Part shown: positions 37,169 to 61,098 of the stretch, piece by piece | Layout of the letters: each line of letters opens with the position of its first letter | Numbering within the stretch: the first letter of the stretch is position 1 | Source: Sphingopyxis soli | GTDB lineage: Bacteria > Pseudomonadota > Alphaproteobacteria > Sphingomonadales > Sphingomonadaceae | Assembly (NCBI RefSeq): GCF_018682675.1 | Contig: NZ_JAFMTR010000051.1 | Location: 1 to 64,000 of the forward strand | Length of the DNA: 64,000 nt | Direction of reading: 5' to 3' | Translations under genes and position numbers: made by a program | The notes under the pieces: model-generated | What the model was told of the DNA's origin: nothing | Databases searched by the model: none | The model's input: the letters and a program-made list of their open reading frames with translations, nothing else

Positions 37169-37216
37169 AAATGGCGCACCCGAAGGGATTCGAACCCCTG
37201 GCCTCTGCCTTCGGAG
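37169..37216. repeat. Left attachment site (orphan tRNA-Arg 3' fragment)
   Basis: Identical over 48 bases to 61019-61066. It contains the T arm, acceptor strand and CCA of tRNA-Arg but breaks off at the anticodon loop, so it is not a functional tRNA. Sequence differs on both sides of the repeat, as expected for a site-specific crossover core. Confidence 0.88.
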
Positions 37217-37399
37217 CGGGTACTAACAGGCTACGCTATTCAACGCCAGAGCCTGTTTTCCTACTCTAAGATACTCATATTTCATCGGAAAGATGAAAAT
37301 CGCTGCTGCCGATGCTAACCTAGGCCCGCCGAGAATACACCCCCTGTTGCTTACGCGGTGCTTTCGCGGAAGCAGTACGGTTCGAAGAGGTTGCAGCCT

Positions 37400-38758
37400 A
37401 TGGGCAGGATCACAAAACGCCTTGTAGAGGCGGCTGTCGCCGAGGTGAAGGATTATATCATCTGGGACGATGAATTGCCGGGTTTCGGTATCCGGATATT
37501 CGCGTCTGGCAAGCGCAGCTACATCATCCAGTATCGCACCCAGGGACGATCCCGGCGTCTGACGATCGGCATGCACGGCATCTGGACCCCCGAAATGGCG
37601 CGCCGGGAAGCACGCATTCAACTGGGCCGCGTGGCTCAAGGCGAAGACCCGCAGGAAGAGCGACAGATCGACAGGCAGGCGATCACGGTCAAGGAGCTTT
37701 GCGCCTTGTATCTGACCGACCTCAACGCCGGGCTTATTATCGGCAAAGGTGGGCGGCCGAAGAAGCAATCGACCATCGACACCGATACGGGTCGCATGCA
37801 CCGCCACATCGTGCCGCTGCTTGGACCGCGGCGGGTCAAGGATCTGGACAAGGCCGACATTAACAAGGCGATGAAAGACATCATGGCCGGTAGGACAGCG
37901 GTCAGCGTCAAGACAGCGAAATTGCGAGGCAAGGCTATTGTGCGAGGCGGAGCTGGAACCGCCGCCAGAACGATTGGCTTGCTTGGAGGCATCCTGACCT
38001 ATGCCGTCGAGGCCGGGATCATCGAAACCAATCCGGCGTTCGGTATCCGCAAACCGAAGGACAATGTTCGCGACCGTCGGTTGTCGGAGGCCGAGTACCG
38101 CTTGATCGGTACCAAACTTCGCGAAGCGGAGATCGATGGGCAATATGCGATAGCTGCACAGATTATCAGACTGCTGGCGCTTACCGGTTGTCGTCGTAGC
38201 GAACTCACCAAGCTCCGGTGGAGCGAAGTCGACATCGAAAGCAGCTGCCTTCGCCTCGAAGATAGCAAGGAAGGAAAATCAGTTCGGCCCGTCGGCTTGC
38301 CGGTCATTGAATGCCTGCAACAACAGAGGGTGTCCGATGCTCGAACCTATGTATTCCCGGGCACCGGCCGCGACAACGCCTTCGGAGCCCTTCCCGATCA
38401 CTGGACGAAGATACTCGGCGGATGCGGTCTGGACGACATCACACCTCATGTGCTGCGGCATAGTTTCGCCAGTATAGCGAATGATCTTGGCTTTACTGAG
38501 ACCACGGTTGCAGCGCTTCTAGGGCATGCCAAGGGGTCGGTGACCGGCCGCTATATCCACACGATAGATGCCGCGCTCATCGCAGCCGCAGACACGGTTG
38601 CCGGATATATCCAAGGCCTTCTTGATGGAGCCCATTACAAGCTGACGGCTTACGCACTCGACCATACTTCTCGAAAGCAAGCTCTTGCGAGCTTTCTGGC
38701 GGCCGCTGTTGCAGAGGAGCCCGCCGCCGACGCGAGCGGAGAATCTCTCGCCGCTTGA
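37400..38758 (+). CDS. Tyrosine-type site-specific integrase
   Basis: A 452-residue recombinase. An N-terminal arm-binding domain (DUF4102-like: DDELPGFGIRIFASGKRSYIIQY) and a core-binding SAM-like domain precede the catalytic domain. Catalytic residues are visible: Arg in LTGCRRSELTKLRW, the HxxR box in HVLRHSFAS, His in LLGHAKGSVTGRYIH, and Tyr in GRYIH. The ATG at 37400 has AAGAGG nine bases upstream; a GTG at 37358 is an alternative. It lies 180 bases from the left attachment site and is very likely the enzyme that inserted the element into tRNA-Arg. Base composition is less GC-rich than the flanking operons. Confidence 0.93.
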   Translation: MGRITKRLVEAAVAEVKDYIIWDDELPGFGIRIFASGKRSYIIQYRTQGRSRRLTIGMHGIWTPEMARREARIQLGRVAQGEDPQEERQIDRQAITVKELCALYLTDLNAGLIIGKGGRPKKQSTIDTDTGRMHRHIVPLLGPRRVKDLDKADINKAMKDIMAGRTAVSVKTAKLRGKAIVRGGAGTAARTIGLLGGILTYAVEAGIIETNPAFGIRKPKDNVRDRRLSEAEYRLIGTKLREAEIDGQYAIAAQIIRLLALTGCRRSELTKLRWSEVDIESSCLRLEDSKEGKSVRPVGLPVIECLQQQRVSDARTYVFPGTGRDNAFGALPDHWTKILGGCGLDDITPHVLRHSFASIANDLGFTETTVAALLGHAKGSVTGRYIHTIDAALIAAADTVAGYIQGLLDGAHYKLTAYALDHTSRKQALASFLAAAVAEEPAADASGESLAA

Positions 38759-39257: not shown

Positions 39258-39878
39258 CTATCGCGGCGCGTCGAGCTGGATGATCGTCGCCATCCGCACC
39301 AGATCGGACAATGTCTTCGCCTGCATCTTCATCATCGCATTCGCGCGGTAGACCTCGACCGTCCGCGCGCTAATTGAAAGATCGAAAGCGATGGCCTTGT
39401 TCGCCTTGCCGGCAACAAGACCGTCGACGACTTCCCGCTCACGCGCCGAAAGTGCGGCCATCCGTTCGAGGATTGCCTGCCGTTCGGCCCGCGCACTTTC
39501 GCTCCCGGCCTGCACCGTCAGCGCGCGCCGGATGGCGCCGAGCATGACCTCGTCATCGAACGGCTTCTCGATGAAATCGGCGACACCCGCCTTCATGGCC
39601 TGAATGGCGAGCGGAACATCGGCATGGCCGGTGATCATGATGACCGGGACTGCCACGCCTCGCGCCTTCAGCGCCTCGACCAGCTCGATACCGCTCGTGC
39701 CCGGCATCCGCACATCGGTCACCACGCACGCGCCTTCGAGCGGCGGCGAGGCTTTCAGGAACGCATCGGCGGACGCGAAACCCCGGACGCGAATTTCGGC
39801 ACAATCGAGAAGAAACTCGAGCGAGCCTCGAGCGCCGTCGTCATCGTCGATCACATAGACGATCGGATCACTCGCCAT
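39258..39878 (-). CDS. fixJ: FixJ-family response regulator
   Basis: The 206-residue protein has a receiver with [18 protein letters not shown], the phosphoacceptor Asp in [12 protein letters not shown], Thr in VIMITGHAD and Lys in [11 protein letters not shown] linker and a LuxR-type helix-turn-helix follow ([37 protein letters not shown]). This is the FixJ order and length. The ATG at 39878 has GAGGAG seven bases upstream; the adjacent ATG at 39881 is possible. Its start lies inside the end of the fixL-like gene, so the pair is translationally coupled. It should be phosphorylated by that sensor under low oxygen. Confidence 0.92.
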
Positions 39879-41412
39879 CATATAACTCCTCTTGACCCAT
39901 CCTCGGCAAGGTGAAGCTGAACTGTGCCCCGCCGCCAGGTGCCGGATCGACCCAAATCTTTCCGCCATGCGCTTCGATGATCGTGCGCGAGATCGACAAG
40001 CCCACGCCCATGCCGGTCCGCTTCGTGGTTATGAAGGGCTGAAACAATTGCGCCGCGACGGCCGGGGCAATGCCGGGGCCATTGTCGGTCACGGTGACCC
40101 GGGCCATGTCACCATCGGCCTCGATCGCTATCGTCAGCTTGCGGTCCCCGGCAGCCGTTTCGGCAAAGGCGTCGACCGCGTTGCGTACGAGGTTCAGCAC
40201 CACCTGCTGTATCTGTACCTTGTCCACGAGCACCAGATCGACGGCGGTATCGAAGGCGAAGCGAATGCGAATATCATGTTCGCGCGCGCCGACCAGCGCA
40301 AGCGCACTCGCCTCCTCGACCAGCTGGGGCAGGTTTTCGACGGCGCGCTCAGTCTCGCCGCGCGCCACGAAATCGCGCAGGCGCCGGATGATATCGCCTG
40401 CGCGAAGCGCTTCCGCCGCGGCTTTTTCGACGGCCTCTGACAGCCGATCGTGCGGGACGTCCTCGCGCGCAAGCAGCATCCGGCTGCCCTTCAGATAGTT
40501 GGCTATCGCCGAAAGCGGCTGGTTGATCTCGTGCGCGAGCGCCGAAGCCATCTCGCCCAGGCTGGTGAGGCGGGACATATGGACGAGTTCGTTCTGCAGC
40601 TCCTGTAACCGCGCCTCGGCCTGCTGGCGTTCGGTGAGGTCGCGAATGAAGCCGGTAAAGAAGCGCTCACCGCCTGCTCGCATCTCGCCCACCGACAATT
40701 CGATAGGGAAAGTCGAGCCGTCGTGCCGTTCGCCGACGACGAGCCGCCCCATGCCGATGATCCGTTTCTCACCCGTCCGGTAATAGCGATCGAGATATTC
40801 GTCATGCGCGGCGCGATAGGGCTCGGGCATCAGCATCCGGACATTTTTCCCTACCGCCTCGTCCGCTCGCCAGCCGAACATGCGCTCCGCCGCGGGGCTG
40901 AAATCGCGGATCGCACCCGCCTCGTCGATCACCACCATGGCGTCGGGGACGGTTTCGAGGATCGAACGCAAATGCGCCTCGCGGTCCGCCAGCGCCGCGG
41001 CACCCTCTTCGGTTTCGACACGGGCATGCTGAAACCACTCGCCGCCCAGCGAGATCGCGAGCGAAATCACAAAGAAAGAGCCGGCGGCAATCAGGCTGCC
41101 GCCCTCGACAGGCGCGATTCGGCTGTCGCACCACAAGCCCGTCGCCACGCCGGCCAGAGCCGCCAGAGTGCCCGCGCGGAGCCCCGAAAGCGCGCCCGCG
41201 ACCACGACCCCCGGCACGAAAAAGATGAAGGTCGCGCGCTGCCCGAGCTCCGTAGCGAACAGCAGGCGCACCGCCACGCCGCCGGCGACGAAAAGCAGGG
41301 CGATGCCGAAGGCCGCGAGCACGGGGAGGCGCGGAAGGAAACGGCTCGTCAGACGAGCACGGCGCACCTCCGGTAAATCCCTTAGGGGAGATACGGTAAG
41401 GACATCATCCAA
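39868..41412 (-). CDS. fixL: FixL-like heme PAS oxygen-sensing histidine kinase
   Basis: About 514 residues. Four membrane segments (about residues 30-135) precede a PAS domain with [20 protein letters not shown] and [19 protein letters not shown]. His203 in AAHDEY and Arg223 in IIGMGR are 20 residues apart, exactly the spacing of heme-ligand His200 and distal Arg220 in Bradyrhizobium FixL. The kinase domain has [29 protein letters not shown] and [10 protein letters not shown]. FixL autophosphorylates when oxygen leaves the heme. The start is uncertain: TTG at 41412 has GAGGAG nine bases upstream, GTG at 41367 lacks spacing to its GGAG, and a longer ATG frame would overlap the oxidase gene. 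The gene is divergent from the alternative oxidase. Confidence 0.92.
41373..41396. promoter_or_regulatory. Palindromic site before the alternative oxidase, candidate FixJ site
   Basis: Centre TCCCTTAGGGGA (41378-41389), flanked by GTAAA and GATACGG. It lies about 100 bases upstream of the oxidase start, and inside or just before the fixL-like gene depending on its start. The TCCC/TTA content recalls FixJ-bound promoter sites in rhizobia, but the match is by eye only. Confidence 0.4.
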
Positions 41413-41492
41413 ATTTCCGCGCTCCTCGTTCCGGCCTATTTCGTCCCCATCGACGGCATCACTACCCCTGCCGCCGGAACGGAGATGTTCCA

Positions 41493-42182
41493 ATGACTGC
41501 ACCTTTCATCGATCTCAGCGTTCATCACAACCCCAAGGGTCTGTCCGATCGCGTCGCCTATGGCTTCACCAAGGTCCTGCGCTGGTGCGCCGACACCTTT
41601 TTCGCCGAGCGTTACGGACACCGCGCTGTCGTCTTGGAAACGGTCGCTGCGGTTCCGGGGATGGTGGGCGCGACAATCAACCATCTCGCCTGTCTCCGCC
41701 GCATGTGCGACGACAAGGGCTGGATCAAGACGCTCATGGACGAGGCCGAGAATGAGCGCATGCACCTCATGACCTTCATCGAGATTTCCAAGCCGACGCT
41801 CTTCGAACGGGCCGTAATCATCGGCGTGCAATGGGTGTTCTATATCTGCTTCTTCGCGCTCTACCTGATCAGTTCCAAGACGGCGCACCGCGTCGTGGGC
41901 TATTTCGAGGAAGAGGCGGTGATCAGCTACACGCATTATCTCGCCGAGATCGACGAAGGCCGCAGCGCCAATGTGCCGGCACCGAAAATCGCGAAGGACT
42001 ATTGGGGCCTCCCCGCCGATGCGACGCTACGCGATGTCGTCCTGGTGGTTCGCGCCGACGAAGCGCACCACCGCGACGTCAACCACGGCTTCGCCAACGA
42101 GCTTGCCGGCCTGCCCGTCGGCCCGGTGGCCGAGTGCCCGCCGCACGTGACGCTGGAACCCAACTGGAAGAAGGCTGCCTGA
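41493..42182 (+). CDS. aox: Alternative (cyanide-insensitive) ubiquinol oxidase
   Basis: The 229-residue di-iron membrane oxidase passes electrons from ubiquinol to oxygen without pumping protons. Iron ligands are all visible: Glu49 in [10 protein letters not shown], Glu88 and His91 in NERMH, Glu in FEEEAV near 139-141, and Glu190 with His193 in [21 protein letters not shown] precedes the ATG. AOX resists nitric oxide and cyanide, which block heme-copper oxidases. It is divergent from a FixL-type sensor and heads an operon with two globins and a DUF1971 protein. Bacterial AOX is uncommon and usually accessory, fitting its place in a mobile element. Confidence 0.95.
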
Positions 42183-42210
42183 CCGCGGCTCCGGGCAACG
42201 GAGGAAGGAC

Positions 42211-42555
42211 ATGGACCACCCTGTGATACTCTTCGCGAGCGATCCTGCCCTTCTTTCCGCACTCCGGTTTTCGCTGACGCTCGAAGGGTTCGACGTTCGC
42301 GGCGACGCCGAACGCCCCACAAGCCGAATGTGCCTGGTCATCGACCAGGGTTTTCGCGGCGACGGACTGGCATGGCTCGCCAGCCTCCGCGCGGAGGGGA
42401 ACGCGTCGCCGGCCATTCTGCTTGTGACGCACCCTGACCGCACCCTCCGCGCCTCCGCCGCGGCGCTCGGCGCCCGGCTGATCGAAAAGCCGCTGACGGG
42501 CGACGAACTGACGGACGCCCTGACCGATATCCTGACCTATCATCCCGCCGCCTGA
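42211..42555 (+). CDS. Stand-alone receiver-domain protein, possible FixT-like modulator
   Basis: A 114-residue protein made only of a receiver fold. Asp45 in CLVIDQGF fits the phosphoacceptor, Thr73 in LLVTHPD the switch residue, and Lys93 in LIEKPL the conserved lysine. Only one acidic residue (Asp11) is at the usual acidic-pair site. There is no output domain. FixT proteins of Sinorhizobium and Caulobacter are small receiver-like inhibitors of FixL, and this gene is in the operon facing fixL. Unlike the Fe-S-binding Caulobacter FixT it has a single Cys (Cys41). It could also be a phosphate sink. Confidence 0.75.
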   Translation: MDHPVILFASDPALLSALRFSLTLEGFDVRGDAERPTSRMCLVIDQGFRGDGLAWLASLRAEGNASPAILLVTHPDRTLRASAAALGARLIEKPLTGDELTDALTDILTYHPAA

Positions 42556-42590
42556 CAGCCGCGGCACCAATCGAGACAAAGGAACACAGC

Positions 42591-43040
42591 ATGCGCACCG
42601 CCTCTCCCCATGCCATGACCATCGTCAAATCGACCGCGCCGGCACTTGAGAAGCATGGCGTCGAGATCACTACCGCCATGTACGCGCGGCTCTTTCGGGA
42701 TCCCGCCATCGAGGCCCTGTTCGACAAGGCCGCGCAGAGCAGCGGCGAGCAGCCGCGACGGCTTGCCGGTGCGATCCTTGCCTACGCCCGCAACATCGAC
42801 AAGCTCGCGAACCTTCGCCCGGCCGTCTCGCGAATGGTCGCGCGCCATGTCGAAACCGGCGTCAAGGCCGAGCATTATCCCTATGTCGCCGAAGCCTTGC
42901 TTCCTGCGATCCGCGATGTACTCGGCCCCGATGTCGCGACCGACGAGGTGCTGGCGGCCTGGGGCGAAGCCTATTGGATGCTCGCCGACATTCTCATCGC
43001 CGCAGAGGCGCAAGCCTATGAAGACGCCGTGGCGGCCTGA
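42591..43040 (+). CDS. Single-domain globin related to flavohemoglobin
   Basis: A 149-residue globin. The proximal heme His is in SRMVARHVETGVKAEHYPYV, the standard F-helix segment of flavohemoglobins and Vitreoscilla-type hemoglobin. AAWGEAYWMLADILIAAE matches the H helix. There is no reductase domain, so it would need a separate electron donor. Members bind oxygen and can oxidise nitric oxide to nitrate. It is the third gene of the oxidase operon, 35 bases after the receiver gene, and one base before the next globin gene. Confidence 0.9.
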   Translation: MRTASPHAMTIVKSTAPALEKHGVEITTAMYARLFRDPAIEALFDKAAQSSGEQPRRLAGAILAYARNIDKLANLRPAVSRMVARHVETGVKAEHYPYVAEALLPAIRDVLGPDVATDEVLAAWGEAYWMLADILIAAEAQAYEDAVAA

Positions 43041-43041
43041 T

Positions 43042-43437
43042 ATGGAAGACAGGATGAGACTTGAGCTCTCGGAGCAGGACCTCACGAAACTCGTTCCGGA
43101 ATTTTACGCGCGCGTCAGGGCCGATCCGGTTCTGGGTCCAATTTTCGATGGCGCAATCGACGACTGGGACGAGCATATTGAAAAGTTGCAGGCCTTCTGG
43201 TCGTCCGTCATGCTCACGAGCGGGCGGTATAAGGGGCAACCGATGGTCGCCCATCTGCGCCACGAAGGCGCCATGAGTGCGGCCAATTTCGACCGCTGGC
43301 TCGCCTTGTGGCAAAAGACGACGGGGGATATTCTCGACCCGGACAATGCAGCCGCACTTCAGGCGAAGGCGGCGCGGATCGCCGAGAGCTTGCAGCTTGG
43401 CGTCCAGTTTCAGAGCGAACGATTGGCGAGATCGTGA
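43042..43437 (+). CDS. Group III truncated hemoglobin
   Basis: A 131-residue 2-on-2 globin. The group III pattern is visible: LVPEFYARVRADPVLGPIF at the start, HIEKLQAFWSSVMLTSGRYKG, then the proximal His in AHLRHEGAMSAANFDRWLALW. Group III members occur with NO- and microaerobic-response genes, but their reaction is unsettled. The ATG at 43042 begins one base after the previous stop; an in-frame ATG at 43054 has the better GGAAGACAGG upstream. The stop overlaps the next GTG by four bases. Confidence 0.92.
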   Translation: MEDRMRLELSEQDLTKLVPEFYARVRADPVLGPIFDGAIDDWDEHIEKLQAFWSSVMLTSGRYKGQPMVAHLRHEGAMSAANFDRWLALWQKTTGDILDPDNAAALQAKAARIAESLQLGVQFQSERLARS

Positions 43438-43721
43438 CGAAAGCCTTGCCCGCCGGTCTGCAATCCTACAAGCGGACCGCCACATTCACCGAAGCGACGA
43501 CACCCGCCGCCTTGATGAACGATCATTCGACGAAAGAGGGCGTCTGGGGCTTGATTCACGTCGAAGAGGGCAGCTTGTACTATCTGGTGACCGATAGCCA
43601 GCGCCAGTCCTCCCAACAAATCCTGACATCCGATTGTGGTCCAGGCATTGTGGAACCGACGATAATACACAAGGTGGAGATCATCGGGCGGGTGCGGTTC
43701 TTCGTCGAGTTTCTGCGCTGA
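43434..43721 (+). CDS. DUF1971 (cupin-like) protein
   Basis: A 95-residue protein of the DUF1971 family, a compact beta-sandwich often fused to or placed near tellurite-resistance-like and nitric-oxide-response genes. The pattern LPAGLQSYKRTATF at the start, MNDHSTKEGVWGLIHVEEGSL in the middle and VRFFVEFLR at the end is characteristic. It starts with GTG in a GTGA overlap with the truncated hemoglobin. A longer open frame upstream is only read-through in another frame. Pairing of this family with group III hemoglobins is common, suggesting a shared function that is not yet known. The 154 bases after it hold no gene. Confidence 0.85.
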   Translation: MTKALPAGLQSYKRTATFTEATTPAALMNDHSTKEGVWGLIHVEEGSLYYLVTDSQRQSSQQILTSDCGPGIVEPTIIHKVEIIGRVRFFVEFLR

Positions 43722-43875: not shown

Positions 43876-45615
43876 TCAATTGCGCCGATCTTCGGCAATT
43901 CGATGAAATTTTCGTGCCTTCAAAAGGTCCTGCCGCGAGAGAATTCCAACCACTCGCCGGGAAACGGGCTCGACGATAGGAATCCGGCCAAATCCGGTCT
44001 CGACGATCAAATCGGCGATCGCACCGATTGGCGCGTCCGGGTAAGCAAAAGGCAGGCCGGCATCGGAAATGGCGTCGGACAATGTCGCCGTGAGGAGCGT
44101 CTCGCCCGCTTGCCAGCGCAGCGCATCGGTGCGCGACACAAGTCCGATCAGACTGCCCTCCTCATCGACAATGGGATAGCTTCGATGCGTAGCGCGGGTC
44201 TGGAAGAAGTCGAGCGCCTCGCCTACACGCAGATCGCCTTTCAGCGTGGCGGGATCGCGTGTCATGATCTGATCGGCCTGGAACAGCGCTAGCGGATCGA
44301 CGCTATATTCCTGAACGATGTGGCGGCCGCGGCGCGCGATCTTCTCGGTCAGGATCGATCGCCGGATGAGCAGCACGCTGACCGCATAGGCGGAACCCGC
44401 GGCAGCGACGGTAAAGGGTAGCGCATCGAAATGTCCGGTTACCTCGGCCGCGAAGAGTGCGCCCATCAGCGGTGCTCTCATCGCGCCGCTCAAAATGCCT
44501 GCCATACCGATCATCGCCCAGAAGCCGGCGTCGCCCGGCAACATCTGCCCCGCAAGGTATCCGGCTGCTCCGCCCAGGATCAGCAGCGGTGCCAGCACGC
44601 CGCCGGACGTGCCCGAACCGAGCGCGATCAGCCAGACGAGCGCCTTGACGACCATCAGCGCGATAACGACCCGGAGCGCGAGCGAGCTATCGAGCAGCGC
44701 CTGAATGCTCGCATAGCCGGCCCCGAGAACATGCTTGTCGATCAGGCCGCCGATACCCACCGCAACCGCGCCTATGGCAGGCCACCACATCCAGTGGACG
44801 GGTAGCCGCTGGAACAGGTCCTCGGTTAGATAGAGCGTCGACGAGATGAATGCCGAAAGGAGGCCGGTGACGATGCCGATCGCAGCAGCTCCACCGGCCA
44901 ATTCCGCCGATGCGGGCATCGCCGCGTCAAAGGGAAACATCGGTCCAACGCCGATAAGCGATGGCCGCGCCGTCCACGCGACAAGAACCGCGGCGACGAG
45001 CGGCACGAAGCTGCGCGGCTTCCATTCGAAGAGGAGAACTTCGATCGCGAGCAGGATCGCAGCGAGCGGGGTGTTGAAAATGGCCGTCATGCCGGCGGCG
45101 GCGCCGGCCACCAGTAACGTCTTGCGCTCCGCGGCGCTCAACCGGAAGCGCTGCGCAAAGAGCGAGCCGATGGCGCCCCCCGTCATGATGATCGGCCCCT
45201 CCGCACCGAAGGGGCCGCCGCTGCCGATCGAGATTGCCGAAGAAACCGGCTTCAAGACAGCGACCTTCAGCGACAGGCGGCTCTCGCCGAATAGGATCGC
45301 CTCGATCGCCTCTGGGATGCCGTGGCCCCTGATCTTGTCTGAGCCGAACCGTGCCATGACGCCAACGAACAGGCTTCCGAGAACAGGGACGAACATCGTA
45401 CCGAACCCGAGCGCCGAATCGATAATCTCGGTCGGCGCGGTGGACAGACGACCGAACCAGAACAGGTTCGTCATCAATGCGATCGCCCTAATGAGGAGCC
45501 ACGCCCCGCCCGTCGCTCCAATGCCCACAACCAGTGCCATCACCGCCAGAAGCAGCATCCGGCGATCCGCGCTATGATCGGCCAGACGGTGGCGCCTGTC
45601 TGCGTGGGCGGGCAT
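43876..45615 (-). CDS. ClC-family chloride channel/antiporter with CBS domains
   Basis: The 579-residue protein has about a dozen membrane segments followed by two CBS domains. The anion-pore motifs are GSGGPFGAEGPI near residue 145, which includes the gating Glu, and GSGTSGGVLAP near residue 350. CBS segments read IMTRDPATLKGDLRVGEAL and ADLIVETGFGRIPIVE. CBS pairs usually sense nucleotides. The ATG at 45615 has CCGGAG eight bases upstream; an ATG at 45651 lacks a binding site. It is divergent from a MarR regulator. Members export or exchange chloride, fluoride or nitrate; the ion is not certain. Confidence 0.9.
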   Translation of the reverse strand: MPAHADRRHRLADHSADRRMLLLAVMALVVGIGATGGAWLLIRAIALMTNLFWFGRLSTAPTEIIDSALGFGTMFVPVLGSLFVGVMARFGSDKIRGHGIPEAIEAILFGESRLSLKVAVLKPVSSAISIGSGGPFGAEGPIIMTGGAIGSLFAQRFRLSAAERKTLLVAGAAAGMTAIFNTPLAAILLAIEVLLFEWKPRSFVPLVAAVLVAWTARPSLIGVGPMFPFDAAMPASAELAGGAAAIGIVTGLLSAFISSTLYLTEDLFQRLPVHWMWWPAIGAVAVGIGGLIDKHVLGAGYASIQALLDSSLALRVVIALMVVKALVWLIALGSGTSGGVLAPLLILGGAAGYLAGQMLPGDAGFWAMIGMAGILSGAMRAPLMGALFAAEVTGHFDALPFTVAAAGSAYAVSVLLIRRSILTEKIARRGRHIVQEYSVDPLALFQADQIMTRDPATLKGDLRVGEALDFFQTRATHRSYPIVDEEGSLIGLVSRTDALRWQAGETLLTATLSDAISDAGLPFAYPDAPIGAIADLIVETGFGRIPIVEPVSRRVVGILSRQDLLKARKFHRIAEDRRN

Positions 45616-45652
45616 AGACAAACTCCGGATGAACAGTGAGAGGCCGCCCATT

Positions 45653-46221: not shown

Positions 46222-46950
46222 GTGCGTTTCGATTGGTTGCGTTTCCATCCACGGCTAGCCGGTGCCCGGTCGAGCGATCGTCTGGCGGCATCACTGGGAG
46301 CACTTGCGGCTATCCTAATTGTCGCGTTGACGAGCGCTGCGCTGTTGGCGAGCCTCACTCCGATATGGCTTGTCGCACCGATCGGCGCATCGGCGGTCCT
46401 CGTGTTTGCCGTGCCCGCCAGCCCGCTGGCTCAACCCTGGCCCGTGATCGGGGGCAATATTCTGTCGGCACTGGCAGGCGTCGTCGTGGCAAATTCCGCA
46501 ACCTCGCACGAGTTGGCTGCAGCCCTCGCGGTCGGGCTTGCGATTGCCGTCATGTCTATGGCGCGCTGCCTCCACCCACCCGGAGGTGCTGCCGCCCTCA
46601 CCGCCGTCATAGGCGGACCAGCGGTTCACGCGCTCGGCTGGAACTTTCCCATTCTGGCGGTCGGACTGAATTCCATCCTTCTGGTCGCGGCAGGAATTGC
46701 GTTTCACCGCTTCTCGGGCCATTCCTATCCCCACCGCGCGATCCCTGCTTCAGGCAACTTCCAATCGATTGATCGAAGAAGCCTCGATGCTGCCGATGTC
46801 GAAGCCGTGCTCGACGAGCTCGGTGAGTCCTTCGATATCGACATCGATGATCTCGCAGTGATCGTCCGTGCTGTCGAACGGCGCGCCGCAACACGAGAGC
46901 AACTCTTGGGCGAAACCGGCCAGCGCTCGTATATCAGCCGCGCTGCCTGA
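46222..46950 (+). CDS. HPP-family integral membrane protein
   Basis: A 242-residue protein with a short basic N-terminus, four or more membrane helices, and the HPP hallmark CLHPPGGAAALTAVIGG near residue 115, plus APIGASAVLVFAVP earlier. The final 70 residues are soluble and acidic (FDIDIDDLAVIVRAVERRAATREQLLG). HPP proteins are often near nitrogen-oxide and anion genes, and plant members transport nitrite, so anion transport is plausible. It starts with GTG at 46222 and shares its strand with the MarR gene. Function in this organism is not known. Confidence 0.85.
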   Translation: MRFDWLRFHPRLAGARSSDRLAASLGALAAILIVALTSAALLASLTPIWLVAPIGASAVLVFAVPASPLAQPWPVIGGNILSALAGVVVANSATSHELAAALAVGLAIAVMSMARCLHPPGGAAALTAVIGGPAVHALGWNFPILAVGLNSILLVAAGIAFHRFSGHSYPHRAIPASGNFQSIDRRSLDAADVEAVLDELGESFDIDIDDLAVIVRAVERRAATREQLLGETGQRSYISRAA

Positions 46951-47511: not shown

Positions 47512-49554
47512 TCATAGGTCGGGACTGAGCCGCATCGCCGCGCCGCCGCCCGGCGCGAGCCATAGGCGGTAGTGGTCGCCCTTCTTCACCTTGACCATGT
47601 CATAGGCGATCCGGTGCCGCGCGTCGGTCAGATAGGTCGCGCCCTCGCCATCCTTATAGACCTTCGCGGTGTAGGTCTTGCCGGGTTCGAGAAAGTCGAA
47701 GCTCAGGTCGAGGGTCCGTTCGGTCGCATCGTTGACCCCGCCGACATACCAGTCCGCACTCGCACCATCCTTGCGCGCGAAGATCGCAAAATCGCCGACT
47801 TCTCCAGCGATCAGGTGGCTTTGCGACCAGTCGGCCGGAACCTTGGAAATGAAATCGAGCTCGCGCGGAAATTTCTCCAGCGTTTCGGGAAAATCGGCCG
47901 CCATCTGGATCGGCGAATAGATGGCGAGATAGAGGCCGAGCTGCTTCGCCAGCGTCGAAGCAAGCGGTGTATGGTTCGCCCCCTCGAGGCTGAGCACCCC
48001 GGGGGTGAAGTCCATCGGACCCGACAGCATCCGCGTATAGACGAGCGTCGGTTCGTGATCGGGACCGTTGGCGAAGGCGCCCCAGGCATTATATTCCATG
48101 CCCCGGGCACCTTCGCGTGCGACCCAGTTGGGATAGGTGCGGCGAAGGCCGGTGTCCTTGACCGGCTCGTGCGGATTCACCGCGATATGATATTTAGCCG
48201 CGGTCTCGACGACCTTCAGATGATGATGCACCTGTCGCTGGCCGTCGTGCCATTCCATCGCGACGCTGTCGGGGGTGTCGCCCGGCGCGATGATGCCGCC
48301 CGCGTCGGCGACATAGCCGGTCTTGATCGTCCCGACGCCAAGCCGCCCGTAAAGCCTCATCGCATCGTCGAGCTGCGCCTCGTAAACCTTTATATTCCCG
48401 CCGGTTTCATGATGCCCGATCAGCTGGACATGCTTCGCGCGGGCATAGTCGGTGACCGCCTTCAAGTCGAAATCGGGGGTCGCCTCGGTAAAGCTGAACT
48501 CGTCGCCGTGGCCGAACCAGTTGCCGTTCCAGCCCTTGTTCCAGCCCTCGACCAGCACGCCGCCGAACCCGTGCTTCGCCGCGAAATCGATCGTCGCCTT
48601 CGTGCGTTCGGTCGTCGCGCCGTGCTTTGGCCCCTCGGCCCATGTCCAGTCGCCGCGGATCATCCCCCACCAGATGCCGACATATTTCATCGGCTTGAAC
48701 CAGCTAACATCGCCCAGCTTGTTCGGTTCGTTGAGATTGAGCTCGAGGTCGCTTTCGACCAGCCCCGCCGCGCTGCCTGCAATACGGATCGTGCGCCACG
48801 GCGTCGCGAACGGAAGGTCGCGGACGACGCGCGGTCCTTTCGACGAAGGCGCCAGCGTGGCGCGGAATTTCTGCCCTTCGGCGCGCTTCAGCCACATCCC
48901 CGAATAGTCGACGAGCGCTGCCTCGTGGAACGACAGGTGCGTCCCGTCGTCGAGCCGCACGGTCATCGGCGTGTGCGCGGTGGCGACGGCATCGACCGGC
49001 GTCTTCTGATAGACTTGTTCGTACCGGTTCCACTCGCCGGCGGTGATCCACCACGCCGTGCCCTTGGGCACCAGGTCGAACTCGGTGATCTCGTCGGCTA
49101 TTTTCGCGGTCTTGAGCCCCGCCTGTTCGGGGAGTTCGTAGCGAAAGCCGATGCCGTCGTCGAACAGGCGGAAACGGACGTTCATCGCGTGGCCGCCCCA
49201 GCTTTCGTTCTGGCGCAGGCGAACGAGCAGTTCATTGTGGTGGTCGCGCACAAAGCGGCGTTCGCCCCACGGCTGTTCCCAGCGGCTGTCGGCGCTGGCG
49301 CGCTCGACACCCTGAATCGCGAAGCCGCGTTGCAGGCCGATCCCGTCGGTGAGCAGGAAGCCGAGCTTCGACGGCGCGAACAGCAATTGCCCCTTGCGCG
49401 ACAGCGACCAGGTCGGGCGCTGGTCGTTGTCGGTCGCGACGGTCAGCACCAGGCTACCATCGGGCGAGGTCGCGGTGACCGACGCGGGCGCCTCCTGCGC
49501 GAAGGCGGGCGACGCGGCGAGAAGCGCGAGCGGGGCAAGGCGAAGCATGGACAT
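47512..49554 (-). CDS. Glycoside hydrolase family 97 enzyme, SusB-like
   Basis: A 680-residue protein with a signal peptide (LRLAPLALLAASPAFAQ). It starts with a beta-sandwich, continues with a (beta/alpha)8 catalytic domain, and ends with a C-terminal sandwich, the GH97 layout. Landmarks include YVGIWWGM, GGVLVEGWNKGW, LIGHHETGG, and IAVNPHEPVKDTGLRRTYPN, which hold the calcium and catalytic residues; the inverting or retaining class cannot be settled by eye. GH97 alpha-glucosidases cut short maltooligosaccharides in the periplasm. The ATG at 49554 overlaps the preceding GH13 stop in TGATG. It is last in the operon. Confidence 0.9.
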   Translation of the reverse strand: MSMLRLAPLALLAASPAFAQEAPASVTATSPDGSLVLTVATDNDQRPTWSLSRKGQLLFAPSKLGFLLTDGIGLQRGFAIQGVERASADSRWEQPWGERRFVRDHHNELLVRLRQNESWGGHAMNVRFRLFDDGIGFRYELPEQAGLKTAKIADEITEFDLVPKGTAWWITAGEWNRYEQVYQKTPVDAVATAHTPMTVRLDDGTHLSFHEAALVDYSGMWLKRAEGQKFRATLAPSSKGPRVVRDLPFATPWRTIRIAGSAAGLVESDLELNLNEPNKLGDVSWFKPMKYVGIWWGMIRGDWTWAEGPKHGATTERTKATIDFAAKHGFGGVLVEGWNKGWNGNWFGHGDEFSFTEATPDFDLKAVTDYARAKHVQLIGHHETGGNIKVYEAQLDDAMRLYGRLGVGTIKTGYVADAGGIIAPGDTPDSVAMEWHDGQRQVHHHLKVVETAAKYHIAVNPHEPVKDTGLRRTYPNWVAREGARGMEYNAWGAFANGPDHEPTLVYTRMLSGPMDFTPGVLSLEGANHTPLASTLAKQLGLYLAIYSPIQMAADFPETLEKFPRELDFISKVPADWSQSHLIAGEVGDFAIFARKDGASADWYVGGVNDATERTLDLSFDFLEPGKTYTAKVYKDGEGATYLTDARHRIAYDMVKVKKGDHYRLWLAPGGGAAMRLSPDL

Positions 49555-51188
49555 CAATGGTCGATCCGGATCCAGAGGGCACCGCAAGGCGGCAGGGTGT
49601 CGGCGTCGGCGCCATTGAGCGCCACGATCGGCATTCCGCCGCGATGCTGGGCAGCAATGTCGATGGACGCGCCGCCGAGGTTGAAGAGGCAGCGGATCGT
49701 TTCGCCTTCGGCCACGCGGTCGAAGGCCAGCAGGTCGCCCTCGGCCACCCAGCCGCCGTCGCGGCCGTGACGGAGCGCGGGGTGCGCTGCCCGCAGCGCG
49801 ACGAGCCGCCGCGTCAGGTTGAGCAGCGAGGCGGGGTCGCCATCCTGCCGGTCGACCGCGAGGCCGGCGTGCGCGTCGCCGAGGGGTAGCCACGGGCTGG
49901 CAGACGAAAATCCGGCATGCGCCGCATCCGCTGCCCACGGCAAAGGCGTCCGCGCGCCGTCGCGCGACAGGGTCAGCGGCCAGTTCTTCAGCGCCTCGGG
50001 ATCCTTGACCATCTCGAACGGGATATCGACCTGATCGAGCCCCAGTTCCTCGCCATTATAGATGATGATGTTGCCGCGCAGCGCACATAGCAGCACCATC
50101 TTCATGCGCGAATAGGCGGTGGCATCGACGCCGGCGGGCGTCCAGCGCGACACCGCGCGCGGCGCATCGTGGTTTTCGAAGGCCCAGCTCGGCCAGCCGA
50201 TACCCGGCGCGTCGGGCCATTGCTCGGCAGCTTCGCGAACGAGCTTCGGCGTCAGCCGGTCCGCGTAGAGGAAGTCGAAACCATAGGCGCTGTTCAGGCG
50301 CCGGTCGCCCGCGGTGAACAGCTTCATCTCGCGCACCGCATCGTCGCCGCCGACCTCGGCGACGGTGAAGCTGCCGCCATATTCGTCGGTCAGCGCGCGA
50401 ATGCGCTCAAGGAACAGCGGAATGTCGGGATGCGACTGGTTGTGGATTTTCAGCTGGAAATCGAACGGCCGGGTGCGGACCTTGTTCGACGGCGGCGCCG
50501 GCGGATTGTCGCGCAATTCGGGATCGTGCATCGCAAAATTGATCGCGTCGATGCGGAACCCGTCGACGCCGCGATCGAGCCAGAAGCGGACCACGTCGAG
50601 CAATGCATCCTGAACCGCGCGGTTGTGGACGTTGAGCTGCGGCTGGGTCCCGAGGAAATTGTGCATATAATATTGGCCGCGCCGCGCGTCCCACGTCCAT
50701 GCCGGACCGCCGAACACCGACTGCCAGTTGGTGGGCGGCGAGCCGTCGGGCTTCGCATCGGCCCAGACATACCAGTCGGCCATCGCATTGTCCCTGCTCG
50801 CGCGGCTGGTCGCGAACCAATCGTGTCGGTCCGACGTGTGCGCAAAGACAAGGTCGGTCGTCACCTTCAGACCCAGCGCGTGCGCGCGCGCGACGAGCGC
50901 ATCGAAATCGTCGAGCGTTCCGAAGATCGGATCGACACCGCAATAATCAGAAATATCGTATCCGAAATCGTCCATTGGCGAGGGATAGAAGGGCGACAGC
51001 CAGATGGCGTCGACACCCAGCGAGGCGACATAATCGAGCCGCGCGGTGATGCCCGCCAGATCACCGATCCCGTCGCCGTTCGAATCTGCAAAGCTGCGCG
51101 GATAAATCTGGTAGATCGCCGCGCCCTTCCACCACGGCAGGTCGGCGACGGCGTGCGGCTGTGGGGCAAGGCTATGGTTCGTCGTCAC
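49554..51188 (-). CDS. GH13 alpha-glucosidase
   Basis: A 544-residue alpha-amylase-family enzyme with no signal peptide, so probably cytoplasmic. The GH13 regions are AIYQIYPRSFADSNGDGIGDL, DLVFAHTS, GFRIDAINF (nucleophile Asp), VAEVGG (acid/base Glu) and FENHDAPR (third Asp). This resembles GH13 subfamily alpha-glucosidases of Caulobacter and Xanthomonas maltose loci, which release glucose from maltose and related sugars after uptake. It is the fourth gene of the operon, after the exported amylase (15-base gap), with its stop overlapping the GH97 start. Confidence 0.92.
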   Translation of the reverse strand: MTTNHSLAPQPHAVADLPWWKGAAIYQIYPRSFADSNGDGIGDLAGITARLDYVASLGVDAIWLSPFYPSPMDDFGYDISDYCGVDPIFGTLDDFDALVARAHALGLKVTTDLVFAHTSDRHDWFATSRASRDNAMADWYVWADAKPDGSPPTNWQSVFGGPAWTWDARRGQYYMHNFLGTQPQLNVHNRAVQDALLDVVRFWLDRGVDGFRIDAINFAMHDPELRDNPPAPPSNKVRTRPFDFQLKIHNQSHPDIPLFLERIRALTDEYGGSFTVAEVGGDDAVREMKLFTAGDRRLNSAYGFDFLYADRLTPKLVREAAEQWPDAPGIGWPSWAFENHDAPRAVSRWTPAGVDATAYSRMKMVLLCALRGNIIIYNGEELGLDQVDIPFEMVKDPEALKNWPLTLSRDGARTPLPWAADAAHAGFSSASPWLPLGDAHAGLAVDRQDGDPASLLNLTRRLVALRAAHPALRHGRDGGWVAEGDLLAFDRVAEGETIRCLFNLGGASIDIAAQHRGGMPIVALNGADADTLPPCGALWIRIDH

Positions 51189-51203
51189 GCGTCGTTTTTC
51201 CGC

Positions 51204-53012
51204 TTAGTCTTTGGCCTGGCATATGGCGGTACCGAAGGCGGGGAGAGTGAGGAACAGGCTGCCCGGCGCGGCGGCTTGCGCCGGACAGTCGCCAAGGAGC
51301 GACGTAAAGGCCGCGCTCCTCATGTCGATGGCAATATTGGCCGAGACGGGCGTTGCAGACGTATTGAACGCCAGCAACACCTCGCGGCCGGAGTCGGGAT
51401 CGAACCGCGAGACCGCGAGCAAGCCGGGCTTTTCCGAAATGGCGCGCAGCTTCGTCGTCCCGTGCAGCAGCGCGGGCGTCTTGCGGCGGATCGCCGAAAG
51501 CGCCGCGATCTCGCGGTAGAGCGGATGGGCCGGGTCGAAATTGGCCGACGCGGTGGTCGCATCGGTGCCGATCAGGTCGTTGTCGTTATAGACGTCGACC
51601 GTCGAGGCGAACATGTCCTCGCGCGCGAGCTGGTCGCCTCCGTCGGACACGAAACCCTGCTCGTCGCCATAATAGATCGTCGGGACACCGCGCAGCGTCA
51701 GCAGCATGGCATGACCCAGCATCACGCGCTTCAGCAGTTCGTCGGCGCTCGCACCGGGGTTTTCCTGCTTCACGAACATCGCGAAGCGGCCCATGTCGTG
51801 GTTGCCGAGGAAGGTCGGGAGTTGCAGCGCCGCGGCCGGCCCGCCCTTGTACAGAACATCGCCGTCGAGCAGCCGTTCGAAGACGGCGGTTCCGGTTGTT
51901 CCGCCGACCGCATCGATCACCGCGCGAGCGAAGCTGAAGTCGAGCACCGCCGGCAGTCCGGCGACGCGCGTGTGGCGCGCCAGCGATCCGGGATCGACCG
52001 CGTCGTTATAGACTTCGCCAAAGATGTGGAAATTCGGAATCCCGCGCGCCTTTGCGCGGGCCAGCATCGCTGGAACGAAAGCCTGCCAGAATTCGGGGTT
52101 CACATGCTTCGCGGTGTCGATACGGAATCCGTCGATCCCGAATGCGTCGATCCAGCGGCCATAGATGTCGATGAAACCCTGTACGACCTTCGGATTCTCG
52201 GTCGCCAGATCGTCGAGACCGGCGAAATCGCCATAAAGCGCGGACTCGCCGACCCAGTCGCTGTTGCCCCGATTATGATAATAGATCGGATCGTTCAGCC
52301 ACGCCGGAACCTTGGCGTTTTCCTCACCCTTCGGCACGACAGCCGTGTAGGCGAAAGACGGGTCGGTCAGCTTGGCCCAGTTTTCGGGCGAGGAATCCTG
52401 ATCGCCGGCGAAGCCCGGGTTGATCGGCGCCCCGTTCACCCCGCCGCGGCGCGAATAAGGATAGTCGGCGAGGCTGCGATATTTATAGCCCTCCGCTTCG
52501 CCTTCGGTGTAGCGAATGACGTCGGCGGTGTGGTTGGTGATGATGTCCATATAGACCTTCATCCCGCGCGCGTGCGCCGCGTCGACGAAAGCCCGGAACT
52601 CGTCATTGGTCCCGAAGTGCGGATCGACGCGCGTGAAATCGGTGACCCAATAGCCGTGATAACCAGCGCTCTCGTCGCCCTTGGGTCCTTGCACCGGCTT
52701 GTTCTTGAAGATGGGGGCGAACCAGATCGCGGTCGCGCCCATCCCCTGGATATAATCGAGCCGCTTCGTCAGCCCGGCAAGATCGCCGCCGTGATAGAAG
52801 CCCTTGGCCGACGGATCGTAACCGGTTGCGAGCCGGTCGCCCGTCAGCCCGCCGCGATCGTTGCGCGGGTCGCCATTCTCGAACCGGTCGGGCAGGACGA
52901 AATAGATCACTTCGTCGGTCGCGGGACGCGCGCGGACGTCGGCGAGGCCGGCCTGCGCCAGCACCGGAAGCGGCGCCAGTATCAGCGCAAGCGCGGCGAG
53001 CCCGCGGATCAC
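51204..53012 (-). CDS. Exported GH13 alpha-amylase
   Basis: A 602-residue alpha-amylase-type enzyme with a clear signal peptide (MIRGLAALALILAPLPVLAQ). Conserved regions: VIYFVLPDRFENGD, DIITNHTAD, GFRIDTAKH with nucleophile Asp, FGEVYND with acid/base Glu, and FLGNHDMGR with the third Asp. It should work in the periplasm or outside the cell, producing maltooligosaccharides for the GH97 and GH13 glucosidases. The ATG lies in a four-base overlap with the halogenase-family stop. Confidence 0.92.
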   Translation of the reverse strand: MIRGLAALALILAPLPVLAQAGLADVRARPATDEVIYFVLPDRFENGDPRNDRGGLTGDRLATGYDPSAKGFYHGGDLAGLTKRLDYIQGMGATAIWFAPIFKNKPVQGPKGDESAGYHGYWVTDFTRVDPHFGTNDEFRAFVDAAHARGMKVYMDIITNHTADVIRYTEGEAEGYKYRSLADYPYSRRGGVNGAPINPGFAGDQDSSPENWAKLTDPSFAYTAVVPKGEENAKVPAWLNDPIYYHNRGNSDWVGESALYGDFAGLDDLATENPKVVQGFIDIYGRWIDAFGIDGFRIDTAKHVNPEFWQAFVPAMLARAKARGIPNFHIFGEVYNDAVDPGSLARHTRVAGLPAVLDFSFARAVIDAVGGTTGTAVFERLLDGDVLYKGGPAAALQLPTFLGNHDMGRFAMFVKQENPGASADELLKRVMLGHAMLLTLRGVPTIYYGDEQGFVSDGGDQLAREDMFASTVDVYNDNDLIGTDATTASANFDPAHPLYREIAALSAIRRKTPALLHGTTKLRAISEKPGLLAVSRFDPDSGREVLLAFNTSATPVSANIAIDMRSAAFTSLLGDCPAQAAAPGSLFLTLPAFGTAICQAKD

Positions 53013-54514
53013 GCCGCCACCGCCGCGCGCGAGGTTGCCGCAAGGAAATCGTCATAGCTCGCCATTTGCGCGACCTCCGCTTCGACCATCGCCGCGACGC
53101 CGGCCATATAGCGCGCGAGGTCGTCGGCGCCGATCCCATCGGCCAGCGGATGCCACGCGCGCGGCGCAATCCCCTGCCCCACCAGCACTTGCAGCCAGCC
53201 GGATTCGGTGAACAGCTCCTCATGCTCGCGAAAGATCAGGCCCTGGGCGAGGAACAGCTCGATCTTCGCCGCGAGCGTGTCGGGAACCGGCATCTCTGCC
53301 CGGTCGCGCCAATAAGCCGTGTCGCGCCGCTCGGTCGCCTTGAAATGCAGGATGATGAAATCGCGGATACGCTCCCACTCGAAGTCGCTCTGCCGGTTGA
53401 ACTCGGCAGCGACAGCGGGGTCGGTCGCGCCCGATGGCAACATCTTGAGCAGCCGCGATATGCCGGCCTGCACCAGATGGATGCTCGTCGATTCGAGCGG
53501 CTCCATGAAGCCGCTGGCCAGTCCAAGCGCAACGACATTGCGGTTCCACATCCGGCGCCGCTTGCCGCTGACGAAGCGCAGCCGGTTCGGTTCCGCCTGC
53601 GCGGGTCCGTCGAGATTGGCAAGCAGGGTCGCGACGGCCTCGTCGTCCGTTACATGGTCCGAACAATAGACATAGCCATTGCCGATCCGGTGCTGCAGCG
53701 GGATACGCCACTGCCAACCCGCGTCGCGCGTCGTTGCCCCGGTCCACGGTAGCTGCGGCGTGGCACCGTGCGCGCACGGCACCGCCACCGCGCGATTGTT
53801 GAGGAGCCAGTGCGACCAGTCCTCATATCCGGTTTCGAGCGCGCCCTCGATCAGCAGGCCCCGGAAACCCGAACAGTCGATGAAGAAATCGCCCTCGACA
53901 GACCGCCCGTCATCGAGTGCGACGCCGGTGACATCGCCGGTCTCGCCATTCAGACGGACATCGACCACTTTCCCCTCGATCCGCTCGACACCGGCGGTTT
54001 CGGCGCGGCGGCGGAGAAAGGCGGCGTAGAGCGCGGCGTCGAAATGATATGCATAGGGCATCTCGAGCAGGTGCGGCGACGTGCGAGGCGCGCCGCGCTG
54101 CATCCGCCGCGCATATGCGGCCCGCTCGTTGAGCGAATAATGGTCGAGCGGTTCGGCCACCCCGGTCGCCCACGCGCGCAACCAATAGTGATGGAACTCA
54201 AGCAGGCCGAGCCCGCGCCCGATCGCCCCGAAGGCGTGCATGTAGCGATGACCAGGCCGCGTCCAGCCGTTGAATTCGATGCCGAGCTTGATCGTGCCCT
54301 GCGTCGCGGCAAGAAACTCATCCTCGTCGATTCCGAGCGCGTCGTTGAAGAGACGGATCTGCGGGATCGTCGCTTCGCCGACTCCGACGGTCGCGATCGC
54401 GTCGGATTCGACCAGCCGGACCGACCAGCTCGCCGGCAGGAAATGGCGCAAACAGGCCGCGGCCATCCAGCCCGCCGTGCCTCCGCCGATGATAATTAGC
54501 CGCATGGGGGACAT
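53009..54514 (-). CDS. Flavin-dependent tryptophan halogenase-family protein
   Basis: A 501-residue protein of the FADH2-dependent halogenase family. The FAD motif GGGTAGWMAA is at the start, the catalytic-type Lys in GTIKLGIEF near residue 80, and the WxWxIP box in GWQWRIPLQHR near residue 265. SGFMEPLESTSIHL closes the flavin site. Such genes recur in TonB-receptor carbohydrate loci of Caulobacter, Xanthomonas and sphingomonads, where no halogenated product is known. The ATG at 54514 has AGAGG upstream; 54505 is less likely. It follows the receptor gene after a hairpin and overlaps the amylase gene by four bases. Confidence 0.88.
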   Translation of the reverse strand: MSPMRLIIIGGGTAGWMAAACLRHFLPASWSVRLVESDAIATVGVGEATIPQIRLFNDALGIDEDEFLAATQGTIKLGIEFNGWTRPGHRYMHAFGAIGRGLGLLEFHHYWLRAWATGVAEPLDHYSLNERAAYARRMQRGAPRTSPHLLEMPYAYHFDAALYAAFLRRRAETAGVERIEGKVVDVRLNGETGDVTGVALDDGRSVEGDFFIDCSGFRGLLIEGALETGYEDWSHWLLNNRAVAVPCAHGATPQLPWTGATTRDAGWQWRIPLQHRIGNGYVYCSDHVTDDEAVATLLANLDGPAQAEPNRLRFVSGKRRRMWNRNVVALGLASGFMEPLESTSIHLVQAGISRLLKMLPSGATDPAVAAEFNRQSDFEWERIRDFIILHFKATERRDTAYWRDRAEMPVPDTLAAKIELFLAQGLIFREHEELFTESGWLQVLVGQGIAPRAWHPLADGIGADDLARYMAGVAAMVEAEVAQMASYDDFLAATSRAAVAA

Positions 54515-54548
54515 AAGATCAGCCTCTGCCCTGTAGCGCAACAAGAGG

Positions 54549-54578
54549 ACGGGGGCGGCGCGATCCGGCCGCCCCCGT
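54549..54578 (-). terminator. Strong intergenic hairpin between receptor and halogenase-family gene
   Basis: ACGGGGGCGGC at 54549-54559 pairs with GCCGCCCCCGT at 54568-54578 (11 bp, 8-base loop). On the minus strand it is followed by CCTCTTGTTG, not a clean T tract. It may partially stop transcription so that the receptor is made in excess over the enzymes, or protect the receptor mRNA 3' end. Confidence 0.5.
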
Positions 54579-54588
54579 CAGGGAGGGT

Positions 54589-57414: not shown

Positions 57415-57556
57415 AATCGCTCCCCTGTTGCGACGGGATGGTCGGTCGCGCGGCGGCTGGGAAGCGGCGTGTCACGCCGTGGGCATCCTCATCGTCGCGT
57501 GGGTTTTCCCATCGTCGCAGCAGCAATTGAGGCCAAATCGGCGGCGCGGCTATAGG

Positions 57557-57568
57557 GTATACGTATAC
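57557..57568. promoter_or_regulatory. LacI-type operator before the receptor operon
   Basis: GTATACGTATAC, a perfect 12-bp palindrome, 143 bases upstream of the receptor start and 163 bases before the divergent LacI gene. It matches 11 of 12 bases with the site before the permease gene. No other feature was seen in the 316-bp gap 57415-57730. Confidence 0.72.
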
Positions 57569-57730
57569 GCATAATATGCAGGGGGGCGTCCTGCCGCGCA
57601 AATGTCACAGCGACGACAGGTCGCGCTTGCCCGGTACGGGCACGTCGCGCGAGACGATTGGCATCGCCCGCGCCGCCCGCTAATCAGCGGGTAACGGGCT
57701 GGGCACAAGCCGGCCCGAGGGGAGAAGGAT

Positions 57731-58759: not shown

Positions 58760-58782
58760 GGTCAGGACCACAGGGCCGACCC

Positions 58783-58794: not shown

Positions 58795-58887
58795 TACGTT
58801 TCCGGTACCCGCTTGCTCTTGGGCAAGTCCGCGGCAAGATCACCGCGCCGAAAGAGCCGCCTGCGCGGCCGTGCAGGGAGAGACGTG

Positions 58888-61018: not shown

Positions 61019-61098
<80 letters not shown>

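Follow-up and report, generated by a model that had tools for sequence, protein, structure and literature searches.

The window analysed here (64,000 nucleotides, positions 1 to 64,000 of contig NZ_JAFMTR010000051.1 of Sphingopyxis soli, assembly GCF_018682675.1) contains, at positions 39258-43721, a fixJ-fixL gene pair divergent from an operon that codes for an alternative oxidase (AOX; gene aox), a FixT-like receiver, a globin, a truncated hemoglobin (trHb), and a DUF1971 protein. These genes likely form a transferable, self-contained module for nitric oxide (NO)-tolerant respiration that has its own sensor, with FixJ acting directly on aox and with NO and low O2 as the signal. Conserved sequence in front of the operon strongly suggests the direct control of the alternative oxidase by FixJ, which would be a new variant of FixLJ circuitry, and NO sensing by the FixL of the module is plausible. 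More tentatively, we propose that a dedicated NO-sensing FixLJ system with a single promoter replaced NsrR at an AOX/globin/DUF1971 cassette and was then disseminated, on islands and plasmids, as a complete unit for sensing, response, and reset whose brake is a phosphorylatable FixT-like protein. The module probably keeps soil and water bacteria respiring when NO or low O2 blocks the normal oxidases. A sequence-only reading of this DNA had described a mobile oxygen/NO-response module; every gene that it named lies where it had been placed, and its interpretation as a whole is partly supported.

The arrangement is not peculiar to the window. AOX is encoded in 75 of 397 genomes of the family, including the window genome. 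Apart from the window's own locus, the survey covered 76 AOX loci in 74 genomes, and contig ends cut several of these loci. A second set of close named loci comprised the best 80 of 148 candidates and shares some genomes with the family set. Linkage classes were assigned from tblastn searches in which the proteins of the window and one NsrR-like protein served as queries. Among the family loci, 30 have a divergent adjacent fixL (FixLJ-type), 16 are linked to an NsrR-like gene (NsrR-type), five have FixL or FixJ nearby, and 25 have neither; among the named loci, divergent fixL-aox pairs occur at 59/80, in both Sphingomonadales and Caulobacterales. One assignment per set (L083 and L164) is doubtful, the facing kinase being 36% identical. 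Because of this recurrence, chance is no explanation for the gene arrangement, and a window-specific oddity was rejected. A gene neighborhood of AOX, FixLJ, and group III hemoglobin, which the sequence-only reading had proposed to look for, was also found: the 30 family FixLJ-type loci contain the trHb in 21 cases, a FixT-like receiver in 27, DUF1971 in 18, and the globin in 8. In a class-wide survey AOX was detected in 41/385 genomes, and one of the 29 loci examined had a facing FixL and two an NsrR-like gene. The coupling of FixLJ to AOX thus looks confined to Sphingomonadales and Caulobacterales, within a class-wide view limited to 1.5-kb flanks.

The start of fixL is probably the GTG at 41367 rather than 41502, judging from homology to annotated plasmid copies, and this start leaves a 125-bp non-coding promoter between fixL and aox, in which no repeats were found (the fixJ start is probably 39878). 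Aligned by eye, the fixL-aox spacers have in common CCTCCGG.AA..CCCTTAGGG...GTAGGGACATCATCCAAATTT, and the unit common to Sphingomonadales and Caulobacterales is TAGGG-N7-CCRAAT. This pattern was defined on the very upstreams in which it was counted; upstreams shorter than 100 or 200 bases were excluded here and in the CSNAATWT and 33-mer counts below. It occurs in 43/68 distinct FixLJ-type upstreams (shuffled mean 0.005) and in none of the NsrR-type (0/16), unlinked family (0/25), or "FixLJ nearby" (0/5) loci, and it is retained at 10/20 unlinked loci of close AOX relatives. A relaxed form is present in 53/68 FixLJ-type upstreams and 13/20 unlinked named AOX relatives; at spacings of 3-6, 8, 9, 11, and 12 it was not found, and at spacing 10 twice. 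Behind the core, 31/68 FixLJ-type upstreams contain CSNAATWT (shuffled mean 0.035), compared with 0/16 NsrR-type and 3/44 unlinked upstreams. CSNAATWT is an older motif described for rhizobial fixK promoters (PMC4999443). The possibility that the promoter is conserved merely as fixL coding sequence was rejected, since the annotated fixL start lies beyond it and the element is retained at loci without a facing fixL.

As the pattern was written post hoc, two other comparisons carry more weight. The first took the S. meliloti fixK site as a 33-mer query, with scores above the 99th percentile of shuffles counted as matches. In the part of pSymA of S. meliloti Rm41 that was examined, there is exactly one copy of the published FixJ site TAAGTAATTTCCCTTA, with GTGATCTAACCCAATTT behind it. 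The 33-mer stands out in 37/69 FixLJ-type upstreams, which were divided by hand from locus numbers into Sphingomonadales (28/53) and Caulobacterales (9/16), and elsewhere in 3/19 unlinked named, 1/5 other, 0/16 NsrR-type, and 0/25 unlinked family loci. Brevundimonas upstreams reach 19-20 identities out of 33, and the left 17 bases of the site alone stand out in 10/16 Caulobacterales. In the second comparison, a strict pattern was applied genome-wide to the 397 genomes; of its 18 sites, 17 lie immediately upstream of aox, and the reversed control gave five. This pattern is incomplete for FixLJ-type loci and captures 17/31, the window's own included; the only site in the window genome is the one before aox. 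The element is thus similar to the FixJ site before S. meliloti fixK and is regarded as a putative FixJ-controlled site, which favors the idea of the sequence-only reading that FixJ may act on the oxidase directly. Relatives without adjacent fixLJ encode FixL elsewhere in 5/5 genomes checked, and 4/5 have the relaxed element. Loci L060, L100, L105, and L108 are of this kind, with a FixJ-like element at aox, no adjacent fixLJ, and FixL elsewhere in the genome. No FixL was detected at E<=1e-60 in G008 and G157, which have other AOX types.

The fixL product consists of PAS, HisKA, and HATPase domains (Pfam). Its PAS domain aligns without gaps to a crystallised FixL (1dp6, E=1.5e-53), in agreement with the initial assignment as a FixL-type heme PAS, and the pocket residues are kept across relatives. 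In 87 FixL from FixLJ-type loci, two of which are unaligned at the first two positions, the heme His is conserved in 85/85, the Arg six residues past it in 84/85, and the Arg twenty residues past it in 87/87; we take these residues to be H200, R206, and R220 in B. japonicum numbering. The phospho-accepting His is present in 87/87. With 555 bits FixL stays under the 850-bit cut-off of the NCBIfam FixL equivalog, a model built for rhizobial FixL, though this was the best of the families matched. FixJ combines Response_reg and GerE domains (Pfam), exceeds the NCBIfam FixJ cut-off (278 versus 255 bits), and has its phospho-acceptor Asp conserved in 87/87 relatives.

The genes of the aox operon are separated by 28, 35, and 1 bp, with a 4-bp overlap between the final two. 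AOX scores far above the Pfam cut-off (286 versus 22.7 bits), is 99% identical to the AOX of two Sphingopyxis strains, and contains the motifs LET, NERMH, FEEEA, and DEAHH at residues 48, 87, 138, and 189, which presumably have a role in the diiron site. The second gene had been called simply a receiver. The receiver residues are indeed kept among 75 relatives (D11 75/75; D45 65/75, with E in another 8; T/S73 75/75; K93 75/75), so that the protein may be phosphorylated, but this label is too general. Its Pfam Response_reg match is below cut-off (E=0.0033), and its best NCBIfam match is FixT, but with 35.5 bits against a cut-off of 150. The FixT model matches 37/37 relatives at E<=1e-3; the FixJ model matches 29 of them as well and gives the better top E-value (2.4e-24, versus 1e-15 for FixT). 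As the curated cut-off is unmet and some relatives match FixJ better, the name FixT serves as a lead only. As a FixT-like protein, it is probably a feedback inhibitor of FixL. The aligned parts of its 75 relatives contain 0-4 Cys, with four in one relative. The first globin (149 aa) is of the flavohemoglobin type and has a globin domain without a reductase domain. For the second, the closest solved structure is the group III protein 2ig3, presumably from Campylobacter.

Globins and DUF1971 also accompany AOX in linkage with a different type of regulator gene. Each of the 16 NsrR-linked AOX loci has a nearby globin or DUF1971 gene of the module's families (trHb 15, globin 13, DUF1971 12), and these genes are rare at the 25 unlinked family loci (trHb 2, DUF1971 2, globin 1). 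Two genomes, G316 (L118/L143) and G067 (L124/L183), each have one NsrR-linked and one FixLJ-linked AOX. Many forks are weak in a quick midpoint-rooted AOX tree of 157 rows (134 different). In it, all 90 FixLJ-type rows fall on one side of a branch with a Shimodaira-Hasegawa-like approximate likelihood ratio test (SH-aLRT) support of 96, together with 25 unlinked and two other rows and 0/16 NsrR-type rows. A tighter branch comprises 112 rows (support 90), and within the FixLJ-side clade the linkage label requires eight changes. The distribution suggests a regulator swap at the AOX cassette, FixLJ in place of NsrR; with a midpoint root, the direction of this replacement is inferred.

Published physiology comes from Sphingopyxis granuli TFA, whose aox is upregulated 450-fold anaerobically with nitrate and 17-fold if nitrate is lacking or narG is mutated; NO supplied under anaerobic conditions gives a 70-fold rise, and DETA-NO in air one of about 5-fold (PMC6472365). 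The strain S. granuli NBRC 100800 has a single AOX, adjacent to fixLJ. These data bear on a classical oxygen circuit, in which FixL senses low O2 only, AOX and the globins serve micro-oxic respiration or O2/redox balance, and NO has no direct part. The heme pocket matches that of O2-sensing FixL, and the 17-fold induction follows O2 removal alone (PMC6472365). However, a low-affinity oxidase, which AOX is described to be (PMC6431628), would suit low O2 poorly; NO increases aox expression in air and enhances the anaerobic induction (PMC6472365); and relatives of the operon have NsrR-like genes linked to them. We therefore consider a purely oxygen-responsive circuit rather unlikely. The same two observations, the NsrR-like linkage of the relatives and the NO-induced S. 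granuli aox, move the emphasis from oxygen to NO: of the combined oxygen/NO response first proposed, the NO part is favored and the oxygen part reduced. S. meliloti FixLJ is also described as an NO-responsive system (PMC3820574).

Less probable still is that FixLJ is a mere neighbor with other targets and that NsrR, Fnr, or some further regulator drives aox. NsrR controls aox in V. fischeri (cited in PMC6472365), and the S. granuli nsrR lies near the strongest NO-induced operon of strain TFA, which is headed by SGRAN_3394, a gene called TatC (PMC6472365). Swit_5297 (pSWIT01, L301:4547-4930) is likewise annotated as TatC; Pfam assigns it no family, and this plasmid copy is a 62% match to the window trHb (L134). 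Thus, SGRAN_3394-3396 may be a misnamed trHb/DUF1971/globin cassette. A separate NsrR-globin cassette was not found in the 1.18 of about 4.3 Mb searched of S. granuli NBRC 100800. The window genome (3.63 Mb, estimated completeness 99.99%) speaks against a regulator other than FixJ: it contains one AOX, one FixL at E<=1e-60, and no NsrR-like protein at E<=1e-12, and its only copy of the element precedes aox. The retention of the element before aox in relatives with FixL encoded elsewhere points the same way. A second flavohemoglobin-type globin besides the module's own was not found in this genome. Its three COX1-family proteins were assigned as aa3, bo3-like, and cbb3 from their own and neighboring open reading frames; on this assignment, none of the three is a NorB, presumably a member of the COX1 Pfam family. 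The initial statement that fixK and cbb3 genes are absent is correct within the window, but a different contig of the same genome carries a cbb3 operon, and fixK was not searched genome-wide. An inverted circuit, in which unphosphorylated FixJ would repress aox as it does nif in R. palustris by binding to the promoters (PMC13327599), is very improbable, as the element resembles the activated S. meliloti fixK promoter, box for box in its Caulobacterales form.

Several observations nevertheless weigh against direct control of aox by an NO-sensing FixLJ. The relaxed element is absent from 15/68 distinct FixLJ-type upstreams; taken by itself, the S. meliloti left half-site stands out in just 3/53 Sphingomonadales. 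The trHb and DUF1971 occur together at only 16/30 family FixLJ-type loci, and no FixT, globin, or DUF1971 gene was detected in the 10 kb downstream of the NBRC 100800 aox. NsrR-like matches (1e-12) exist in 8/29 FixLJ-only genomes, four of them at 1e-30, numbers that lack a baseline from AOX-free genomes. S. granuli TFA itself has nsrR, a possible NO regulator of aox (PMC6472365), and its anaerobic aox induction is lost or lowered in fnrN-fixK and narG mutants, which the authors ascribe in both cases to less NO (PMC7713065). Given the effect in the fnrN-fixK mutant, Fnr may also contribute to the induction.

From the gene content, conservation, linkage, element, and mobility seen in the sequences, we infer the following circuit for the NO-responsive module. 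In air, FixL with O2 on its heme-PAS domain would be off. A drop in O2, or NO on the heme, would cause FixL to phosphorylate FixJ, which would then bind the element, some 96 bp in front of aox, and turn on the single operon. AOX would pass electrons from quinol to O2 and thereby bypass NO-blocked heme-copper oxidases, the two globins would remove NO or buffer it, and feedback from the FixT-like receiver would damp FixL. Such a module probably originated when FixLJ took over the AOX/globin/DUF1971 cassette that is kept under NsrR in relatives.

The module lies inside a 23.9-kb tRNA-Arg island (37169-61066), flanked by identical 48-bp repeats, with the integrase adjoining the left attachment site (att) repeat (Table 1). 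G+C is 0.58-0.67 inside the island and mostly 0.65-0.70 on both sides. The right-flank gene is present in 39/40 genus genomes and stands beside tRNA-Arg(ccg) in all 17 relatives examined, which have different DNA to its left; the left flank is shared by none of the 17, with related sequence close to the att/integrase start in one of them. These differences indicate that the tRNA gene (61022-61098) is an integration hot spot; an empty att site was not demonstrated among the 17. AOX occurs in 3/11 genus genomes of the family draw. Sphingopyxis loci have about 3-4.6 kb in common, corresponding to the module, and their flanks are almost unshared at the cut-offs used; two modules are 98.7% identical over 4.6 kb, yet have different flanks. 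FixL, FixJ, and AOX occur together on five plasmid records (a sixth is truncated where its record stops), and the two that were opened are both typed conjugative and contain the whole operon. The repeats with the integrase, the unrelated flanks in congeners, and the conjugative plasmids bear out the mobility postulated at the outset. A conjugative plasmid of Phenylobacterium zucineum (L303) carries a FixL-FixJ-receiver operon without AOX.

Table 1. Features of the island and the FixLJ-AOX module (window coordinates).
Feature	Position	Strand	Evidence or remark
Left att repeat	37169..37216	.	48-bp copy of tRNA-Arg 3' end; 48/48 identical to 61019-61066
Tyrosine integrase	37358..38758	+	Pfam Phage_integrase 2.9e-19
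fixJ, response regulator	39258..39878	-	NCBIfam FixJ above cut-off; Asp in 87/87 relatives
fixL, heme-PAS sensor kinase	39868..41367	-	Domains, FixL structure alignment; start set by homology
Putative FixJ-controlled promoter element	41379..41416	+	Core TAAGG-N7-CCAAAT at 41397-41414
aox, alternative oxidase	41493..42182	+	Pfam AOX 2.1e-85
FixT-like single-domain receiver	42211..42555	+	Best NCBIfam match FixT, below cut-off
Single-domain flavohemoglobin-type globin	42591..43040	+	Pfam Globin 1.1e-10; Vitreoscilla Hb 1vhb E=7.8e-37
Group III truncated hemoglobin	43042..43437	+	Bac_globin 2.8e-5; 2ig3 E=2.8e-14
DUF1971 protein (TehB N-terminal-like)	43434..43721	+	Pfam DUF1971 2.5e-22
ClC-type channel with CBS domains	43876..45651	-	Neighbor, membership uncertain; CLC near 1/59 named FixLJ-type loci
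HPP membrane protein	46222..46950	+	Occasional companion; TM_HPP 2.2e-44
Right att	61019..61066	.	Inside intact tRNA-Arg(ccg) gene 61022-61098 (-)

Beyond the operon, the HPP gene recurs near 5/59 named and 4/30 family FixLJ-type loci and near 2/16 NsrR-type loci. The remainder of the island includes a sugar-use cluster (47512-60387) with GH97, amylase, TonB-receptor, LacI, and MFS genes; a 93% identical GH97 stretch is found close to the S. terrae module (L035).

A link between FixLJ and an alternative oxidase was not found in the literature (titles, abstracts, and passages, with subscription journals mostly outside this search). FixLJ is familiar from its place at the head of oxygen and nitrogen-fixation cascades, and published FixJ regulons of Rhizobiales and Caulobacterales comprise fixK, nifA, and few others (PMC4999443). 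Direct control of AOX, if true, would break the textbook FixLJ-FixK layout. The S. granuli TFA aox is similar to that of the window insofar as the AOX of S. granuli NBRC 100800 adjoins fixLJ; the passages of PMC6472365 and PMC7713065 do not name FixLJ as its regulator, and FixLJ is a candidate for this role, to which these published accounts assign no regulator. With the FixL-FixJ-FixK-FixT circuit of S. meliloti and Caulobacter the module shares the heme-PAS kinase, FixJ, a similar FixJ site, and a FixT-like receiver downstream of the controlled promoter. It differs in that the AOX operon would be targeted directly without an intermediate fixK and in that fixLJ faces its target. The 4-Cys Fe-S motif of Caulobacter FixT (PMC7078487) is not present in the window receiver, which has one Cys, and is also absent from S. 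meliloti FixT. The Campylobacter NssR regulon places the same kinds of globins (single-domain Cgb and truncated Ctb) under an NO-response regulator, which is of the Crp-Fnr type, and no oxidase is named there. The NsrR-controlled aox of V. fischeri and the NsrR-linked AOX/globin clusters of Sphingomonadaceae share with the module the NO-tolerant oxidase, the globins, and DUF1971, whereas in the window a two-component heme sensor takes the place of the Fe-S repressor. The two arrangements would amount to a natural experiment within one bacterial family, with the same kind of operon placed under an Fe-S repressor at some loci and under a heme kinase at others.

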